From: Phreatobacter cathodiphilus
GTDB taxonomy: Bacteria > Pseudomonadota > Alphaproteobacteria > Rhizobiales > Phreatobacteraceae
Direction of reading: 5' to 3'
Length of the DNA stretch: 64,000 nt
Assembly: GCF_003008515.1 (NCBI RefSeq)
Contig: NZ_CP027668.1
Location: 248,001-312,000 of the forward strand
Shown: in pieces, positions 10,890-18,942 of the stretch
Layout: every line of letters starts with the position of its first letter
Numbering within the stretch: the stretch's first letter is position 1
Notes under the pieces: generated by a model
Seen by the model: only the letters and a program-made list of their open reading frames with translations
Told to the model about the DNA's origin: nothing
The model's database searches: none
Made by a program: the position numbers and the translations under genes

Positions 10890-11528
10890 TCAGCCCTTGG
10901 CGATCCAGCCGAGGGTGACGGGATAGCCCGTCGCGCCGACCAGCCCCACGGCCTCGGCGAGCGGCAGGCCGACGACATTGGTGTAGGAGCCGACCAGCGA
11001 GACGACGAAGGCGCCGGCAATGCCCTGGATGGCATAGCCCCCGGCCTTGCCACGCCATTCGCCGGCGCCGAGATAGGCGTCGATCTCGTCCTTCGACAGG
11101 CGCTTGAACCGCACCCGCGTCTCCACCAGCTTGGCGCTGACGCGGCCCGCCTGATCGACGCGGCAGAGGCCGGTATAGACCCGGTGCGACCGCCCGGAGA
11201 GAAGACGGATGCAGGCGGCGGCCTCCTCGATGGTCTCCGCCTTCGGCAGGATGCGGCGGCCGACGCAGACGACCGTGTCGGCGGCGAGGATCACCGATCC
11301 CGCCCAGTCCGCATCGTCGCGGATTCGGCGCGCGGCCTCCGAGGCCTTCTCCCGGGCCAGGCGCAGGGCGAGCTTGCGCGGGCTCTCGCGCGGCCAGGGC
11401 GTCTCGTCGATTTCGGCGGGAACCAGCGTGTCCGGCTCGATGCCGGCCTGCTGCAGCAGCGCCAGGCGGCGCGGCGAGGCCGAAGCGAGGATCAGTTTCG
11501 GGCGGCCGGGGACGGATGTGGGAGCCAT
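10890..11528 (-). CDS. maf: Maf family nucleotide pyrophosphatase
   Basis: 212 residues. [20 protein letters not shown] at the N-terminus, then DET and [11 protein letters not shown], are the Maf/Ham1-fold signatures. Maf proteins hydrolyse non-canonical or surplus nucleoside triphosphates (dTTP/UTP or 7-methyl-GTP types) and influence septation. The start at 11528 matches the usual Maf length; the frame is open further upstream without similarity. It is followed by yacG. No infA was found upstream, unlike many relatives. Confidence 0.9.
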
Positions 11529-11716
11529 GGGCGCCTTGGTGAGGACGTGCGCGGGGTGTGGGGTTCGATAGCCCATGCGGCGGGGCTTGTGAACTCGCGT
11601 GGCGGGCAGAGCGAAGAGCGAGCGGCGAACGGGTGATGTCACCCCCTCCTTCGTCCTGTTGGATTTCGCATCGCAGCACGGCATAGACTGCCGCGAAAGC
11701 CGAGGGGAGCCGCGCC

Positions 11717-12766
11717 ATGCCCAAGACCAATCCGGGACGTTTCTTCGAGGACTTCCGCCTGGGCGACCGCCTCGTCCACGCGACGCCGCGCACCGTCACC
11801 ACGGGCGATGCCGCCCTCTACACCGCGCTCTACGGCACGCGCTTCGCCGTCCAGTCCTCCGACGCCTTCGCCAAAGCCATCGGCTATCCACGGAGCCCCG
11901 TCGACGACCTCCTCGTCTTCCACGTCGTCTTCGGCAAGACCGTGCCCGACGTCTCGCTCAACGCCGTCGCCAATCTCGGCTATGCCGGCTGCCGCTTTCT
12001 CGCCCCGGTCTATCCCGGCGACACGCTGTCGACCGTGTCCGAGGTCATCGGCCTCAAGGAGAATTCCAACCGCAAGACCGGTGTCGTCTATGTCCGCTCC
12101 GTCGGCACCAACCAGCACGGCGACGACGTGCTCGACTATGTGCGCTGGGTGATGGTGCGCAAGCGCGACGAGGCCGCCGCCGCGCCGCCCGAGCACGTGC
12201 CGGCCCTGCCGAAGGCGCTGGAGCCCGACCAGCTCGGCGACGCCTGCCCGCTGATCGAGCCGGACGAATGGGACACCGCGCTCTCCGGCCAGCGCCACCG
12301 CCTCTCCGACTACGTGGTCGGCGAGAGCATCGACCACGTCGACGGCATGACCGTGGAGGAGGCCGAGCATATGATGGCGACGCGCCTCTACCAGAATACG
12401 GCCAAGGTCCACTTCAACCAGTTCACAGAGGGCCAGGGCCGCTTCGGCCGCCGCCTCATCTATGGCGGCCACGTCATCTCCATCGCCCGGTCGCTCTCCT
12501 TCAACGGCCTCGCCAATGCCTTCCAGATCGCCGCGATCAACGGCGGCCGTCACGTCGCGCCGCTCTTCGCCGGCAACACCGTCTTCGCCTGGTCGCAGAT
12601 CCTCGCCGTTGAGGAACTTCCCGGCCGCGACGACGTGGGCGCCCTGCGCATCCGCACCATCGCCACCAAGGACCGGCCCTGCGCCGATTATCCCCTCAAG
12701 GCCGGCGACGACTACGATCCCGCCGTCATCCTCGACCTAGACTACTGGGCGCTGATCCCGCGCTGA
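11717..12766 (+). CDS. mch: Mesaconyl-CoA hydratase (MaoC family)
   Basis: 349 residues with two tandem MaoC-type hotdog folds. The sequence ([61 protein letters not shown]) closely resembles mesaconyl-CoA (2-methylfumaryl-CoA) hydratase as I know it. That enzyme hydrates mesaconyl-CoA to beta-methylmalyl-CoA in the ethylmalonyl-CoA pathway, which lets cells without isocitrate lyase grow on acetyl-CoA units. GAGGGGAGC lies before the ATG. No other pathway genes (ccr, ecm, mcl) are in the window. A generic MaoC dehydratase is the fallback call. Confidence 0.82.
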
Positions 12767-12937
12767 CGCTCCGGGCACGGCCGGTCCTGCGCCCCGCGAG
12801 GTTGACCTCGTCTCCTGTTTCGTCATGTTACGGAGCTGGGCCGATCCAGCGTCCCCCGACAGATTCTTCCATGGTGCATGAACCTTTTCGCCGGCCGCCG
12901 CGACTGATGCTGCGAGCCCACCGGCTCGGGAGTGGCG

Positions 12938-13498
12938 ATGCAGTCTGACAGCGACCAGGACCTCATCCTCCGGGTTGCCAAGGGCGATCGCCTCGCCTTC
13001 AGGGCCCTCTATGCCCGCCACAATGTCCGCGTGTTCCGGTTCATCCTCCGGTTCATCAAGGACGAGGGGCAGGCCGAGGACCTGATCGGCGAAGTCTTCC
13101 TGGACGTGTGGCGGCAGGCCGACAGGTTCGAGGGGCGCTCCAGCGTCTCGACCTGGATCCTCGGAATGGCCCGTTTCAAGGCGTTGTCCTCGCTGAGGAA
13201 GACGACCGAGGCGGAACTCGACGAGGAACAGGCTGCCGCCATCGCGGACGACGCGGACACGCCCGAGACGGTGTCTCAGAAGCTGGACAAGGCAAAGGCC
13301 ATCCGCCGTTGCATCGACCAGCTCTCACCCGAGCACCGGGAGATCGTCGATCTGGTCTACTATCAGGAGAAATCGATCTCCGAAGTGGCCGAAATCGTCG
13401 GGATACCGGAGAACACCGTCAAGACGCGCATGTTCTATGCGCGCAAAAGGCTCCAGGAGCTCATGCAGAGCGCCGGAGTCGATCGAGGTTGGCCATGA
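12938..13498 (+). CDS. ECF-type RNA polymerase sigma factor
   Basis: 186 residues with region 2 (about 10-75; AFRALYARHNVRVFRFILRF, EDLIGEVFLDVWRQ) and region 4 (about 125-175; LSPEHREIVDLVYYQEKSIS, GIPENTVKTRMFYARKRL). The linker is short, as in group 4 sigma factors. The ATG at 12938 has GGGAG 5 nt upstream; a GTG at 12932 is the alternative. The stop overlaps the next start by 4 bp (ATGA), implying translational coupling to the anti-sigma gene. The 171 bp upstream has a TTGACC at 12802 but no convincing -10. Confidence 0.92.
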   Translation: MQSDSDQDLILRVAKGDRLAFRALYARHNVRVFRFILRFIKDEGQAEDLIGEVFLDVWRQADRFEGRSSVSTWILGMARFKALSSLRKTTEAELDEEQAAAIADDADTPETVSQKLDKAKAIRRCIDQLSPEHREIVDLVYYQEKSISEVAEIVGIPENTVKTRMFYARKRLQELMQSAGVDRGWP

Positions 13499-14193
13499 CG
13501 ACGCGCAGCCCCATGGAGATGACCGAGCGCCGGGCGGTTTCCGAACTGCTGCCCTGGTACGCCGCCGGCACGCTCTCCGCCGCCGACACCGCCCGTGTCG
13601 AATCGGCGCTCGCCGCCGACGAGACCCTGCGCGACGAACTCGAGATCGTCCGCGAGGACCAGGATGCGACCTTCGCCCTCGCCGAAGCTTCGCCGCGGCC
13701 CTCGCCCCGTGTTCTCGACGACCTGATGAAGCGCGTCGAGGCCGAACCCGCGAAGTTCGGCCAGGTCGCCGCCCGCGCCCGCGCCGGCTTCGCCGACTGG
13801 CTCGGCGAGAAGCTCGCCCTGCTCTCGCCGCGGACCCTCGCCTATGCCGCCGGTGCCGCGGCCCTCGCCCTCGTCATCCAGGCCGGCGTCATCGGCTCGT
13901 CCTTCATCTCCGGCCCGGCGCAGTTCCAGACCGCCTCCCACAGCCCGGCGCCGGCCGCACCGCGCGCCGAGGGCACCTACATCCTCATCGGCTTCGCCGC
14001 CGACGCCACCGCCGCCGACATGGGCCGCCTGCTCGAACAGGTGAAGGGCTCCATCGTCGAGGGGCCGCGCCCCGGCGGCTTCTACCGGGTGCGCATCGGC
14101 GAGGGCATCATGAGCCCGGCCGATCTCGACCGGGTGGTCGGCACGCTGCGCGGCGAGGCCCGCCTCGTCCGCTTCGTCGGCCCGGCCTCCTGA
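13495..14193 (+). CDS. Membrane-anchored anti-sigma factor (no zinc motif)
   Basis: 232 residues. The N-terminal ~60 residues (RRAVSELLPWYAAGTLSAAD) resemble an anti-sigma domain, but the HxxxCxxC zinc motif is absent; the whole protein has no cysteine. A single membrane segment lies at about 115-138, followed by a Pro/Ala linker and a periplasmic domain (TYILIGFAADATAADMGRLL) that looks like the small fold seen before peptidase modules. Inference: it holds the upstream sigma factor at the membrane and releases it on an envelope signal. Coupled to the sigma gene by ATGA overlap. Confidence 0.8.
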   Translation: MTTRSPMEMTERRAVSELLPWYAAGTLSAADTARVESALAADETLRDELEIVREDQDATFALAEASPRPSPRVLDDLMKRVEAEPAKFGQVAARARAGFADWLGEKLALLSPRTLAYAAGAAALALVIQAGVIGSSFISGPAQFQTASHSPAPAAPRAEGTYILIGFAADATAADMGRLLEQVKGSIVEGPRPGGFYRVRIGEGIMSPADLDRVVGTLRGEARLVRFVGPAS

Positions 14194-14294
14194 TCCCCAG
14201 CGTCCGGCACTCCGCCGGGCTGTGGAGCCAAACAGAAACAATGCAGGACTAGCGTTCCGGGCAGTTCATGCCATCCGGTCCATGAGGTGCAGCC

Positions 14295-16454
14295 ATGTGC
14301 GTGCGTGACGGTCGTCCTGCGGCTCCGCGGATCGGGTCGGGCATCGTGGCCGGTTTCCTCGGCCTCCTCGCGGCATCGACCTTTCTCATGACCATGGATG
14401 TGCGTCCTGCCCAGGCGCAGTTCGGCATATCCATCGGAGGGTTCGGCGGCGGCGGAGGCTTCCGCGGCCGCGGTGCCCGCAGCGAGGGTTTCTCGCGTGG
14501 CCCCTCCATGCAGCGCATGCCCTCCGGCCGGGGCGGCTTCATGGACGGGGGCGGACGCGGCGGTCGCATCGTCGAGGGTGGCGGCCGAGGCGGCCGTTTC
14601 ATCGAGGGCGGTGGCCGTGGCGGGCGTTTCACCGAGGGCGGCGTGCGCGGCGATCGTTTCGGCGGCCGGCCGGGCCGGGGCCGCTATGGCGACGATGCCG
14701 GCTACGGCAACGGCCGTCCAGGTCGTGAGGCGGGGCGTGGCCGCTACGGCGACGACGTCGGGGGCCGGCCCGGTCGCAGGCCTCCTTGGGGGGGCCGCCC
14801 CGGTCGTCCGGGCGGCGACGACGTCGTCACCCGACCCCCCGGACGTCCTCCAGGCGGAAGGCCGCCCGGCCGTCCGCCTGGCGGCCGCCCGCCCGTCGTC
14901 TATCCCGGCGACGGCCCGGTCGTTCGGTTGCCCCCGGGCCGCCGGCCGCCCGTCATCGTGCCCGATCCAGGTCCTGTCGTGGTGCTCCCGCCGGGTGGCG
15001 GGGGACGTCCGCCGGGAGGTCGCCCGCCTGCCGGTCCGCCCGGCGGCCCGCCGCGCGGACCGGGCTTCGGCCCTGCAGCGGCCGGGGCGGCCGCAGCCTT
15101 CGGCGCGCCGGCGCTCATTTCCGCCGCCCGTGCCGGCACGGACCGCCAGCAGGACTTGCCCGGCCTGCCGCCGGCCAACGAACGGCGCTACGTGCCCGAC
15201 GAGGTGATCTTCGTCATGAACGCCAATGCGCCCGCCAATGCGGTGCGCAACCTCGTCCGCCGCTACAACCTGACGCTGATCGCCGAGGAGCAGTCGCAGC
15301 TCGTCGGCGCGGTTCTGCATCGCTACCGCATCCCCAGCCGCACCACCGTGCCGGCGGCGATCCGCGCCATCACCCGCAGCCCAGGCGTCGGTTACGTCCA
15401 GCCCAACTACCTCTTCGACCGACCGAACTACGTCTTCCGCCTGCAGAGCGCTTCGACGACCCAGGGGGGCGGCGCCTCCATGCAATATGTCGTCGACCAG
15501 CTTCGCCTGCCGGAGGCCCACCGCCTCGCCCAGGGCGAGCAGGTGCCGATCGCCGTCATCGATTCCGGGGTCGAGGCGACCCATCCGGAAATGGTCGGCC
15601 GCATCGCCAAATCCTTCGACGCCATCGGCGGAGCCTTTCAGCCGCACGAGCACGGCACCGGCATGGCGGGCGCCATCGTCGCCCATGCCCAGCTCACCGG
15701 CGTCTCGCCGCGCGCCAACATCCTCGCCGCCCGCGCCTTCGCGCCGGGCCAGAGCACGGGGTCCTCGGGCACCAGCTTCCACATCCTCAAGGCGATGGAC
15801 TGGTCCATCCGCGAGGGCGCCCGCGTCATCAACATGAGCTTCGCCGGCCCCCGCGATCCCCTGATGACCCGCGCCATCCAGGTGGCGGCGGGCCAGCGCA
15901 TCGCCATGGTCGCCGCCATGGGCAACGAGGGGCCGGGCGCGCCCGTCTCCTTCCCCGCCGCCGATCCCAACGTCATCGCGGTGACGGCCACCGACCAAGC
16001 GGGGCGGCTCTTCTCCGCCGCCTCGCGCGGCAACCACGTCGCTGTGGCGGCGCCGGGCGTCGAGATCATCCTGCCCGCGCCGCGTGGCGGCTACCAGATC
16101 TCCTCGGGCACCTCGGTCGCGGCCGCCCATGTCAGCGGCATCGCCGCCCTCCTGCTGGAGCGCCAGCCGGATCTCGACCCCGCCCAGCTCCGCCAGATCC
16201 TGCAGGAGACGGCGCGGCGGGGGGCTACGGCGGATCCGCTGCTCGGCGCGGGCCTCGCCGATCCGGTGCCGGCGCTCACCGCCGCCCGTGCGCCGGACCC
16301 CTCGGTCCCGATGGTAACGGCGCCGCCGCCCGCGCCTCCCGCGGCGACGGCCGAAGCGCCGCCGGCTGCGGGCACGGCGACTGCCGAAGCGCCGCCGCCG
16401 GCCCCGCCGCGCCAGGCGACCGTCGATCCCGGCAAGGCCGAGGCGACGGACTGA
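14295..16454 (+). CDS. Secreted S8 (subtilisin) peptidase with Gly/Arg/Pro-rich spacer
   Basis: 719 residues. A signal peptide (ending near 41, AQA) leads into a low-complexity Gly/Arg then Pro/Gly/Arg tract (45-260), a propeptide-like domain (about 298-385), and the subtilase domain (about 415-640). The catalytic triad is intact: Asp423 (VIDSG), His453 (HGTGMAG), Ser607 (SSGTSVAAAH), with oxyanion Asn543. The C-terminus is Pro/Ala-rich. AGGTG precedes the ATG. It sits 101 bp after the anti-sigma gene, so it may be a target or partner of that regulon. The Gly/Arg tract is highly basic and could bind nucleic acid or surface polymers. Confidence 0.9.
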   Translation: MCVRDGRPAAPRIGSGIVAGFLGLLAASTFLMTMDVRPAQAQFGISIGGFGGGGGFRGRGARSEGFSRGPSMQRMPSGRGGFMDGGGRGGRIVEGGGRGGRFIEGGGRGGRFTEGGVRGDRFGGRPGRGRYGDDAGYGNGRPGREAGRGRYGDDVGGRPGRRPPWGGRPGRPGGDDVVTRPPGRPPGGRPPGRPPGGRPPVVYPGDGPVVRLPPGRRPPVIVPDPGPVVVLPPGGGGRPPGGRPPAGPPGGPPRGPGFGPAAAGAAAAFGAPALISAARAGTDRQQDLPGLPPANERRYVPDEVIFVMNANAPANAVRNLVRRYNLTLIAEEQSQLVGAVLHRYRIPSRTTVPAAIRAITRSPGVGYVQPNYLFDRPNYVFRLQSASTTQGGGASMQYVVDQLRLPEAHRLAQGEQVPIAVIDSGVEATHPEMVGRIAKSFDAIGGAFQPHEHGTGMAGAIVAHAQLTGVSPRANILAARAFAPGQSTGSSGTSFHILKAMDWSIREGARVINMSFAGPRDPLMTRAIQVAAGQRIAMVAAMGNEGPGAPVSFPAADPNVIAVTATDQAGRLFSAASRGNHVAVAAPGVEIILPAPRGGYQISSGTSVAAAHVSGIAALLLERQPDLDPAQLRQILQETARRGATADPLLGAGLADPVPALTAARAPDPSVPMVTAPPPAPPAATAEAPPAAGTATAEAPPPAPPRQATVDPGKAEATD
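14544..14654 (+). repeat. 30-bp tandem repeats coding EGGGRGGRF-type units
   Basis: Within the subtilase gene, residues 84-120 consist of four near-identical ten-residue units (EGGGRGGRFI type), encoded by ~30-bp direct repeats. Such repeats can change copy number by slippage. Confidence 0.7.
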
Positions 16455-16484
16455 CCTCCAGCATTCCAGGCGTCAGGAAGCCTC

Positions 16485-16529
16485 CGGGCCCGCTGCGGAA
16501 AAAAATCGCGGCGGGCCCGAACCTTTTTC
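16485..16529 (+). terminator. Rho-independent terminator after subtilase gene
   Basis: CGGGCCCGCTGCG pairs with CGCGGCGGGCCCG (one G-U) across an A-rich loop and is followed by a run of five T at 16524-16528. It lies about 30 nt after the stop at 16454. Confidence 0.75.
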
Positions 16530-16595
16530 CGGCAGGCCGCGACCCATGGATATCGGGGCGCAACGAGCCCCACACCGAACTCAAGGGGACCTGCC

Positions 16596-16856
16596 ATGAA
16601 CCGCTTCAAGACCTTCGCCATCGCCGCCGCCGCCGTCGCCACCCTCTCGGTGGGTGTCGCGTCCCAGGCCGAAGCCGGCCCGTTCCATCGCCGCCACATC
16701 GGCTTCGGCGTCGGGGCGCTTGCCACCGGCCTGATCGTCGGCGGGGCCATCGCCGCCGCCAACTCCCGCGCCTACGCCTCCGACTGCTACCTGACCCGCC
16801 GCTGGGTCGACGGCCCCTACGGCCCGGAGCGCCGCACCGTCCGCGTCTGCGAGTGA
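16596..16856 (+). CDS. Small secreted hypothetical protein (86 aa)
   Basis: Begins MNRFKTFAIAAAAVATLSVG, a signal peptide cleaved near AEA (about 27). A Gly/Ala-rich hydrophobic stretch (about 36-54) follows, then a C-terminal SDCYLTRRWVDGPYGPERRT with a second Cys two residues before the end. The C-terminal pattern of a YGP-type turn plus two cysteines is common in tiny envelope proteins of this order; function unknown. AAGGGGACC lies before the ATG, and terminators flank both sides, so it is a single transcription unit. Confidence 0.72.
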   Translation: MNRFKTFAIAAAAVATLSVGVASQAEAGPFHRRHIGFGVGALATGLIVGGAIAAANSRAYASDCYLTRRWVDGPYGPERRTVRVCE

Positions 16857-16895
16857 GCGCCGCGACCGCCTGACCTGACCTCCCTCCGACCTGCA

Positions 16896-16927
16896 GCGAA
16901 GCCCCGGCCATGCACCGGGGCTTTCGC
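16896..16927 (+). terminator. Hairpin terminator after the 86-aa secreted protein
   Basis: GCGAAGCCCCGG (16896-16907) pairs with CCGGGGCTTTCGC (to 16927) with one bulge, loop CCATGCA. The U-tract is minimal. It lies 40 nt after the stop codon. Confidence 0.65.
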
Positions 16928-17043
16928 GCGTTCGTGGTCCCGTGACGCCGCCCTCGGTCCTGGGGAGCTCCTGTCCTCGTGGCGGATTCTGTGGCGCCCC
17001 CGGCCGGGTGCCGGCCCCTCTCGGTGCCGCAATGGAGTGGAGG

Positions 17044-17080
17044 CAAAACGAAACCGGCGGAGCTTTCGCTCCGCCGGTTC
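17044..17080 (-). terminator. Rho-independent terminator of the Gly-rich secreted protein
   Basis: Read on the minus strand, AACCGGCGGAGC-GAAA-GCTCCGCCGGTT is a perfect 12-bp stem with a GAAA tetraloop, followed by TCGTTTTG. It begins 22 nt after the stop at 17102. Confidence 0.85.
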
Positions 17081-17101
17081 GGGGTTCGGGGTGTCGAGGT
17101 A

Positions 17102-17371
17102 TCAGCGGCGGCCGCCGCGGCTCTCGCAGACGATGCCACCCCAGTAGGTGGAGTAGTGGCAGGCTTCCATGCTGGCGCTGGCCGGGGGCGGCGCGCCGTA
17201 GCGCTGGTGCGTCGGCCCGCCGGGCAGCACGACGGCATTGCTCGAGGTGGCCTCCGAGCCGCCGCCACCGCCGCCACCGCCCCCGCCGCCGCGGGCCTGG
17301 GCGAGGCCGGTGAAGGCGCTGGTCAGCGCGAGGGTGAGTGCGCCGGCGACGGCGAGCTTGCTGATGGACAT
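17102..17371 (-). CDS. Small secreted Gly-rich protein (89 aa)
   Basis: A signal peptide (MSISKLAVAGALTLALTSAF, cleaved near AQA) leads into an 11-glycine run, then a C-terminal segment with two cysteines (EACHYSTYWGG and GIVCES). AAGGAGATC precedes the ATG. The same C-terminal style (two Cys, aromatic, Gly) is seen in the 86-aa protein on the other strand, suggesting related tiny envelope proteins; no known function. It is isolated by terminators at both ends. Confidence 0.72.
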   Translation of the reverse strand: MSISKLAVAGALTLALTSAFTGLAQARGGGGGGGGGGGSEATSSNAVVLPGGPTHQRYGAPPPASASMEACHYSTYWGGIVCESRGGRR

Positions 17372-17484
17372 GGTGATCTCCTTGGGTTCCGGCGCCGCGT
17401 GGCTGCGGTCGCTTGCGATGTCCATGGGTCGGACCGGGAGCGGCGAAGGTTCACCGGAGGCAGCCGGAAAGATCGCGCACTGGC

Positions 17485-17526
17485 ACAAAAGAAAACCCCG
17501 GCTGCGAAGCCGGGGTTTTCTTTTGT
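17485..17526 (-). terminator. Strong terminator closing the mdh-suc-lpd operon
   Basis: ACAAAAGAAAACCCCGGC and GCCGGGGTTTTCTTTTGT are perfect reverse complements around TGCGAA, an 18-bp stem rich in A/T at its base. On the minus strand it starts 18 nt after the lpd stop. It could work in both directions, but no plus-strand gene leads into it. Confidence 0.88.
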
Positions 17527-17544
17527 CCAGGAAGGGCAGGCGCC

Positions 17545-18942
17545 TCACATGTGGATGGCGCGCTTGTCGACGGCCAGCGCCGCCTCCTTGACCGCTTCCG
17601 ACATGGTCGGATGGGCGTGGGTCGAGCGGCCGAGGTCCTCGGCCGAGCCGCCGAACTCCATGAGCACCACCGCCTCGTGGATCATCTCTCCGGCGCCGGC
17701 GCCGACGATGTGGACGCCGAGCACCTTGTCGGTGGTCGCGTCGGCCAGCACCTTCACGAAGCCGTCCGTGGCGCGGTTGGCGCGGGCGCGGCCGTTGGCG
17801 GTGAAGGGGAACTTGCCGACGCTGTAGGCGACGCCGGCGGCCTTCAGGTCCTCCTCCGACTTCCCGACGGTGGCGACTTCCGGATAGGTGTAGACGACTC
17901 CGGGAATGCAGTCGTAGTTCACGTGGCCCGCCTTGCCGGCGATGATCTCGGCGACCGCGATGCCCTCGTCCTCGGCCTTGTGGGCGAGCATCGGGCCGCG
18001 CACCACGTCGCCGATGGCGTAGATGCCGGGAACGTTGGTCTTGAAATGGTCGTCGATGACGACCCGGCCGCGTTCCATCGCCACGCCGACCGTCTCCAGC
18101 CCCAGGCCCTCGGTATAGGGACGGCGGCCGATGGCGACGAGCACCACCTCGGCCTCGATGGTTTGCGCTTCGCCCCCGGCGGCGGGCTCGACCGTCAGGC
18201 TGACGCCCTTCTTCGAGGTCTTGGCGCCGGTCACCTTGGAACCGAGCTGGAAGGTCATGCCCTGCTTGCCGAGGATGCGCTGGAACTGCTTGGCGACCTC
18301 GGCGTCCATGCCCGGCAGGATGCGATCGAGATACTCGACCACATGCACCTCGGCGCCGAGGCGGCGCCAGACCGAGCCGAGCTCGAGGCCGATCACGCCG
18401 GCGCCGATCACCACCATCTTCGAGGGCACCTTGCCGAGCTCGAGCGCGCCTTCCGAGGAGACGATCTGCTTCTCGTCGATGGCGACGCCCGGCAGCGGGG
18501 TCACCTCCGAGCCGGTGGCGATGACGATGGCCTTCGCCTCGATCTCCGTGACCTTGCCGTCCTCGGCGGTGACCGAGACCTTGCCCGGCGCGGTGATGGC
18601 GCCGCGGCCGAAATGCTGGTCGATCTTGTGCTTCTTCATCAGGAAGGCGACGCCGTTGACGTTGGCGTCCACCGTCTCCTGCTTGTGCACCATCATCTGC
18701 TTGAGGTTGAGCTGGGGCGCCGGCACCTCGATGCCGAGGGCCTGGAAGCCGTGGCCGGCCTCGTCGAAGAGCTCGGAGGCGTGCAGCAGCGCCTTGGAGG
18801 GGATGCAGCCGATGTTCAGGCAGGTGCCGCCATGGGTCTTGCGCTTCTCCACCACGGCGACCTTCATGCCGAGCTGCGCGGCGCGGATGGCGCCGACATA
18901 GCCGCCGGGGCCGGTGCCGATGACGATGAGATCGTAGGACAT
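17545..18942 (-). CDS. lpdA: Dihydrolipoyl dehydrogenase (E3)
   Basis: 465 residues. FAD-binding [15 protein letters not shown] at 9-23, the redox disulfide Cys41/Cys46 in [16 protein letters not shown]-binding [15 protein letters not shown], and the C-terminal catalytic His in [12 protein letters not shown]. The enzyme reoxidises dihydrolipoamide of the 2-oxoglutarate dehydrogenase complex with NAD+. Last gene of the operon, 35 bp after the SDR gene and followed by a strong terminator, so it is probably the E3 dedicated to SucA/SucB. Confidence 0.96.

Follow-up and report, generated by a model that had tools for sequence, protein, structure and literature searches.

The 64,000-nucleotide stretch of DNA analysed here (the window; G000:C1:248001-312000 of a single-contig 4.49 Mb Phreatobacter genome) carries, at 12938-16454, genes for an extracytoplasmic function (ECF) sigma factor, a cysteine-free membrane anti-sigma factor and an exported subtilase, a description first given in an earlier note and confirmed by our analysis. 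We found that the periplasmic C-terminal domain (C-domain) of the anti-sigma resembles the N-terminal prodomain of the subtilase encoded next to it, which makes direct contact between anti-sigma and protease plausible. At a probability of roughly 45%, we propose that the three genes form an autoregulated envelope-response operon in which the C-domain docks the mature subtilase, which would then cut the anti-sigma. The genes and the two domains compared are the following:

12938-13498, + strand: ECF sigma factor, 186 aa (Pfam Sigma70_r2 2.6e-15 and r4_2 2e-15; NCBIfam NF009168 300.6 bits, cut-off 236)
13495-14193, + strand: membrane anti-sigma factor, 232 aa, no cysteine, one transmembrane segment at about residues 115-137 (ATGA overlap, profile matches below cut-off, predicted model and hydropathy)
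13966-14190, + strand: periplasmic C-terminal domain of the anti-sigma, residues 158-232 (75 residues), subtilase-prodomain-like (HHalign, prodomain profile and fold matches)
14295-16454, + strand: exported S8 subtilase, 719 aa (Pfam PF00082, Peptidase_S8, 1.1e-43; invariant catalytic residues)
15171-15419, + strand: N-terminal prodomain of the subtilase, residues 293-375 (PF22148, Fervidolysin_NPro-like, 2.6e-6 over 293-371)

The resemblance was seen most directly in a profile comparison. With HHalign, the C-domain profile (81 rows) and the prodomain profile of the neighbouring proteases (59 rows) gave a co-linear alignment of 64 columns with a probability of 92.5, a P value of 4.9e-7 and a score of 35.5, compared with scores of 11.5 for reversed columns, at most 18.0 for 300 column shuffles and 14.8 for the cytoplasmic N-domain of the anti-sigma set against the prodomain. 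Repeating the comparison with other alignments of both families gave a probability of 90 and a P value of 1.6e-6. Additionally, a hidden Markov model (HMM) made from the prodomain only matched 39 of 88 anti-sigma C-domains at E<=0.1 (16 at 0.01 and 2 at 0.001), while the controls gave a mean of 0.5 and a maximum of 2 matches for 50 shuffled sets and 2 for reversed sequences. When 71 of the 80 members of the anti-sigma family were scanned against Pfam (L031, L035, L053, L082, L084, L092, L104, L105 and L108 were left out), the commonest family among their C-domains was Fervidolysin_NPro-like (PF22148), found in 17/71 with a best value of 3.3e-5; this is the family that the prodomain of the window's subtilase matches at 28.2 bits, above the cut-off of 21. 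The underlying family alignments hold 80 anti-sigma rows (L071 was omitted for its X residues) and 58 protease rows (L058 was omitted for the same reason), and a subset alignment holds 50 of the 58 proteases.

The predicted structure of the C-domain agrees with this assignment. The model shows a beta-alpha-beta-beta-alpha-beta fold with a predicted local distance difference test score of 90-95, falling to 75 for the last two residues, and in the best 50 Foldseek rows listed all ten at probability 1.00 (six entries) were subtilase prodomains or pro-subtilases. Comparison with VIA placed prodomains or the inhibitor POIA1 in 15/50 rows at Z 7.0-8.3, for example 1scj_B at Z 7.7 with a root-mean-square deviation of 2.4 over 63 aligned residues. 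The domain thus has, in its predicted model, the ferredoxin-like fold of I9-type prodomains and inhibitors, a fold common to unrelated families. Since ribosomal and other ferredoxin-like domains score alike, the fold alone would not decide its identity; sequence and neighbourhood do.

Subtilisin-type prodomains fold their protease and then inhibit it until they are degraded, and for inhibition both prodomains and POIA1 use a tail that enters the active site. When the predicted model is aligned by structure with the subtilisin prosegment of 77 residues (1spb), the last residue of the anti-sigma, 232, falls on prosegment residue 72, and the C-domain therefore appears to lack this tail, in which it departs from I9-type prodomains and inhibitors. 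The C-terminus lies exactly eight residues from and including V225 in 64/80 family members and is longer in 16/80; because so many members end at the same distance, the C-terminal end is probably under constraint. The C-domain is therefore like subtilase prodomains and free I9-type inhibitors (the subtilisin prosegment and POIA1) in predicted fold and in profile similarity, and differs from them in that it ends a membrane anti-sigma rather than standing on a protease and appears to be without the residues that reach the active site.

The association of the three genes is widely conserved. We retrieved 80 named loci with an anti-sigma profile; all of these share the search pattern, a selection bias of which samples of the order and of the class are free. 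A subtilase was present in 58/80 named loci, usually directly downstream, within the flanking sequence retrieved (at most 5 kb on each side), and in six of them (L040, L041, L055, L080, L098 and L106) the order was rearranged, with the subtilase upstream or on the other strand. Five of the 22 loci without a subtilase have less than 1 kb of downstream sequence. In the even sample of the order (Hyphomicrobiales, as the earlier note had presumed) the anti-sigma profile matched at E<=0.001 in 85/249 genomes, in some through the N-domain only. When the 74 strongest anti-sigma rows (E up to 4.2e-14) were compared with the best 120 subtilase rows listed (173 bits and up), a subtilase lay within 6 kb of 67/74 anti-sigma places among the matches listed, and of the 76 subtilases scoring at least 340 bits (the high-scoring clade) 63 adjoined an anti-sigma. 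For the seven anti-sigma places without a subtilase, four are less than 1 kb from the downstream end of their contig and one (G144) has an adjoining catalytic-domain fragment. The 13 unlinked clade subtilases include eight in Phreatobacter, seven of which are a second copy besides the linked one, while the eighth (G002) comes from a genome in which the contig ends less than 1 kb after the anti-sigma gene. Finally, ten genomes of the 289 in the class sample, besides the window's own, carry the anti-sigma at E<=1e-12; they are all from other orders, and a subtilase is present within 2 kb in 10/10. The earlier note had asked about synteny, and the protease is conserved beside the pair in all of these samples. 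With the neighbourhood kept across families, the trio is not a chance arrangement. Separately, seven of 29 weak, mostly N-domain-only anti-sigma rows adjoin lower-scoring subtilases (e.g. G021:C7:469912 and 472386), possibly a separate association of ECF sigma factors with subtilases.

The signals around the trio suggest how it is transcribed:

12880-12904, + strand: ECF-type promoter, GAACC-N16-CGAC (extended form GAACCTT-N14-CGAC), 33 nt before the sigma ATG (conserved dyad)
16485-16519, + strand: strong terminator-like hairpin right after the protease gene (consensus scan)
16519-16543, + strand: promoter motif, second copy, where the terminator ends (motif scan)
16596-16856, + strand: short exported-like protein of 86 aa, a predicted regulon member without a Pfam family, preceded by a motif copy
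17428-17452, - strand: third copy of the promoter motif (motif scan)
17102-17371, - strand: short Gly-rich exported-like protein of 89 aa, a predicted regulon member without a Pfam family, preceded by a motif copy

Unbiased dyad counting found GAACC-N16-CGAC upstream of the sigma gene in 41/67 deduplicated loci, where the commonest dyad in eight shuffled sets reached 5, and with a spacer of 15-17 the GAACC/CGAC dyad was upstream of sigma in 48/77. The canonical GGAA[CT]-N15-19-[ACG]GT[CT] was enriched neither upstream of sigma (5/77; shuffles mean 3.3, maximum 8) nor upstream of the protease (1/52; shuffles mean 1.4, maximum 4). A promoter belonging to the protease was considered and rejected, GAACC-N16-CGAC being found in only 1/54 deduplicated protease upstream regions; the commonest dyads there are GC-rich (8/54, shuffles <=5) and look like coding composition. 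Among the detached proteases one clear case, L041, has the motif directly before the protease. The consensus scan of 12700-17600 revealed no terminator-like site on the + strand from the start of sigma to the end of the protease and a weak one before the promoter. The simplest reading of a conserved promoter before the trio and a terminator after it is that sigma, anti-sigma and subtilase genes probably form one autoregulated operon.

The same motif delineates a predicted regulon. GAACCTT-N14-CGAC is present at 13 sites in the genome, compared with 1 for the reversed control, and at 139 compared with 16 over 12 Phreatobacter genomes, the window's own included. For 39 distinct sites (13 own and 26 from the genus), 18 precede an exported-like open reading frame (ORF), 4 a sigma gene, 12 another ORF and 5 none, while 121 of 2000 random positions precede an exported-like ORF by the same crude signal-peptide rule. 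Eight of the 13 own sites lie before exported-like ORFs (one of 243 aa, the rest of 86-130 aa) and one before the sigma gene. Six predicted regulon ORFs gave no Pfam family over the cut-off, and one showed a weak DUF3592 match. We also noted that a second locus in the genome (L130, site 2865732) encodes an almost identical version of the protein at 16596-16856 and likewise carries the promoter motif, and that two neighbouring, similar exported-like proteins of ~130 aa each have the motif before them (L133 and L134; G000:C1:4414236 and 4415286); the one of this pair that was scanned has no Pfam family.

These features led us to prefer a docking model, because a prodomain without its tail could bind the mature protease and leave its active site free, close to a variable linker likely to be a good substrate. 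This linker, residues 138-158 between membrane and domain, is the least conserved part of the anti-sigma in the family alignment (entropy 2.71). In the model, the C-domain would be a chaperone/inhibitor fold of the I9 type minus the tail that blocks the active site, and the mature, prodomain-free subtilase would dock on it through the face otherwise occupied by its own prodomain. With its active site left open, the bound enzyme would make the site-1 cut in the flexible linker; sigma would then be released by a single RseP-type M50 site-2 protease together with cytoplasmic proteolysis, and would transcribe its own operon along with a set of short exported proteins. The genome holds one M50 site-2 protease homologue. 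The earlier note had set the circuit apart from the RseP route, a distinction that our analysis does not support, given that this homologue could act after the first cut. As in the RpoE/RseA/DegS/RseP system, the anti-sigma spans the membrane, with its sigma-binding part in the cytoplasm and another part in the periplasm, and a site-2 protease is present; here, in contrast, DegS would be replaced by a secreted S8 protease whose gene is linked and probably co-transcribed, and the sensor is prodomain-like.

It is possible, at somewhat less than even odds, that the switch displays a mimic of the protease's own prodomain as a decoy and so senses that specific protease. A decoy that admits only mature enzyme no longer carrying its prodomain would make sigma activity a readout of active periplasmic subtilase that feeds back on the operon. 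As for the direction of the effect, we mildly favour activation over shielding. Shielding of the anti-sigma by the docked protease is the main variant of the docking model: the C-domain would hold idle mature protease, which protects the anti-sigma (or is itself tamed), until substrates draw the protease off, another enzyme cuts the anti-sigma and more protease is made in a titration feedback. The similarity found by HHalign, Foldseek and the prodomain HMM would fit this arrangement equally, and a protease inside the operon of its own sigma suits homeostasis. We nevertheless consider this feedback improbable, given that the C-domain appears to be without the tail by which prodomains and POIA1 inhibit and that in lineages without the protease the anti-sigma would be permanently unshielded. 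That the subtilase, along the lines of the earlier note, simply cuts the anti-sigma as a site-1 protease, with no docking domain involved, would agree with the gene linkage and the variable linker and leaves the prodomain-like domain and the fixed C-terminus unexplained, and we regard it as very unlikely.

A further alternative is that the subtilase is only an output of the system. It would then be a regulon effector that processes or clears exported Gly-rich proteins, the C-domain would be an ancient ferredoxin-like domain that senses some other ligand and is related to prodomains by deep ancestry only, and a different site-1 protease would cut the anti-sigma. The predominance of exported proteins in the predicted regulon is in keeping with this view, and so is the commonness of the ferredoxin-like fold. 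We consider it unlikely, given that the C-domain is similar to the prodomain of its own protease well above controls and that the linkage persists in the six rearranged loci.

Several observations nevertheless weigh against docking, and some of them favour the output alternative. The best Foldseek row by E-value is an RRM (0.009), with none at <=0.001 among the matches listed, and the VIA list is topped by a ribosomal protein (Z 8.4), with ACT/S6-type domains at about 7, as befits a common ferredoxin-like fold. The window's own C-domain reaches 14.3 bits, under the PF22148 cut-off of 21, and so falls short of the curated family. SPOR is the second commonest Pfam family, in 13/71 C-domains with a best value of 0.01, and in a profile search of the PDB the C-domain matched chain 1x60_A (E 0.008) over no more than positions 40-66; SPOR is the less likely identity of the domain, these matches being weaker and partial. 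The correlation of distance matrices given sigma is 0.46 for C-domain and catalytic domain, not above the 0.49 for N-domain and catalytic domain (C-domain and prodomain, 0.47; C-domain and own N-domain, 0.30); because of this, the mirror-tree signal is not specific and specific co-evolution of the C-domain with the protease is not shown.

Another such observation comes from genomes without the protease. We searched the genomes of 18 of the 22 named loci that lack it (L031, L037, L101 and L105, with less than 1 kb downstream, were left out). Three have a clade protease elsewhere, eight only distant subtilases and seven no match, such that no clade protease was detectable in 15/18 genomes, all 15 of which have kept the C-domain. 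Nine of the 15 are named Bradyrhizobium or Rhodopseudomonas and several others are metagenome-assembled genomes that may be incomplete, while L103 is complete. In these genomes the C-domain must have a different partner or be a relic, and its retention there speaks for the output alternative. For the self-contained protease and anti-sigma circuit put forward in the earlier note, the conserved, probably co-transcribed and autoregulated module and its prodomain-like domain stand in its favour and the 15 genomes tell against it, so that the proposal is supported in part.

A further line concerns Sinorhizobium meliloti. In the available text of PMC6180224, RpoE6-EcfR6 is classified as ECF26, with a serine protease on record as an ECF26 neighbour, and overexpression of RpoE6 induces the divergent serine protease gene SMa0142 with a log FC of 4.7. 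This is likewise an ECF/anti-sigma pair beside a protease gene, and there the gene is induced by the sigma; it differs in that the S. meliloti protease gene is divergent and the promoter consensus quoted for ECF26 is GGAATA/GT (PMC6180224, as far as the available text goes), compared with GAACC/CGAC here. In the pSymA stretch L121, the ORF divergent from the ECF sigma gene (11426-12832, - strand) encodes an S8 subtilase with a stretch that looks prodomain-like by eye. We took this ORF for SMa0142, the record carrying no annotation. By eye, the C-domain of the anti-sigma in L121 is not prodomain-like, and a subtilase can therefore serve as the output of an ECF system whose anti-sigma has no such sensor. 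Both the induction of a divergent protease gene by another ECF sigma and the presence of an S8 subtilase next to an anti-sigma whose C-domain looks different speak for the output alternative. That the window's protease lies within the sigma regulon, as the earlier note expected, is argued for by the operon layout and, as far as the available portion of PMC6180224 goes, by the related induction of SMa0142; the placement remains probable.

Another group with a subtilase neighbour is ECF54, in which a subtilase is among the conserved neighbours; it differs in that the available text of PMC8999054 describes no anti-sigma and proposes proteolysis of the sigma itself. Among the matches listed in the open-access full-text literature, we found no anti-sigma joined with a subtilase prodomain or an I9 domain.

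The individual proteins agree with these assignments. The sigma factor has the regions 2 (Pfam r2, residues 24-89) and 4 (r4_2, residues 121-172) without region 3 that characterize the ECF type, and its gene overlaps that of the anti-sigma in an ATGA at 13495-13498, the coupling that had been noted earlier. The anti-sigma is predicted to consist of a helical N-domain and a long transmembrane helix followed by the C-domain. Its N-terminus matches zf-HC2 at 21.4 bits, just under the Pfam cut-off of 22.2, and an NCBIfam anti-sigma model at 2.2e-11, also under its cut-off; a PDB search with the single sequence gave one match only, at E 1.7. Zinc-binding anti-sigmas carry the motif HxxxCxxC. This motif is present in 0/80 rows of the family alignment and a cysteine within the first 90 residues in 2/80, in line with the absence of cysteine and zinc motif reported for the window's protein. 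According to the available text of PMC7406223, membrane class I anti-sigmas carry a zinc motif about as often as a non-zinc motif; zinc loss is thus ordinary in this class, and the reading of 'zinc-less' as a special feature or signal was rejected. We also observed longer anti-sigmas of 264-293 aa (L081, L082, L097, L103, L104, L107 and L109), common in Rhodopseudomonas/Bradyrhizobium, that have a longer linker and no adjoining subtilase; long anti-sigmas with a protease also exist (L067, L086 and L100).

For the subtilase, two further features are placed as follows:

14418-15044, + strand: Gly/Arg/Pro-rich tract, protease residues 42-250, 68% Gly+Arg+Pro
15534-16253, + strand: subtilase catalytic domain, residues 414-653 (Pfam and model)

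The catalytic set D423/H453/N544/S607 is intact in the window's protein and invariant in 58/58 aligned proteins, as expected of an S8 enzyme, and 56/58 relatives have a signal-peptide-like core by a simple hydropathy rule. The tract, which the earlier note had put at about 200 residues in an exported protease, has a similar length in Phreatobacter relatives and is replaced by a shorter low-complexity stretch in most others. The model of the protease, prodomain included, aligns with pro-Tk-subtilisin (2e1p) over 342 residues at Z 44.7 and a root-mean-square deviation of 2.3, consistent with an N-terminal prodomain that packs on the catalytic domain, as PF22148 also indicates. A second subtilase of the same clade is encoded in the genome (L110 6324-8345, - strand; G000:C1:4445434-4446585), and within its 14 kb stretch we found no sigma or anti-sigma of the family and no promoter motif upstream; seven other Phreatobacter genomes have unlinked copies like it. 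A defence-system reading was rejected, PADLOC having matched the protease to a subtilase model of generic type (4.1e-31) and weakly to IetS, and sigma once, weakly, to CARF.

To our knowledge, the way in which many membrane anti-sigmas perceive their signal is not known. For this unassigned ECF system, matched in 85/249 genomes of the order at the loose threshold given above, the sequence of the sensor domain by itself points to the neighbouring protease as a likely ligand, and so turns the matter into a two-protein binding question that can be tested. If true, the prodomain fold would here have been put to a new use, that of sensing active protease.

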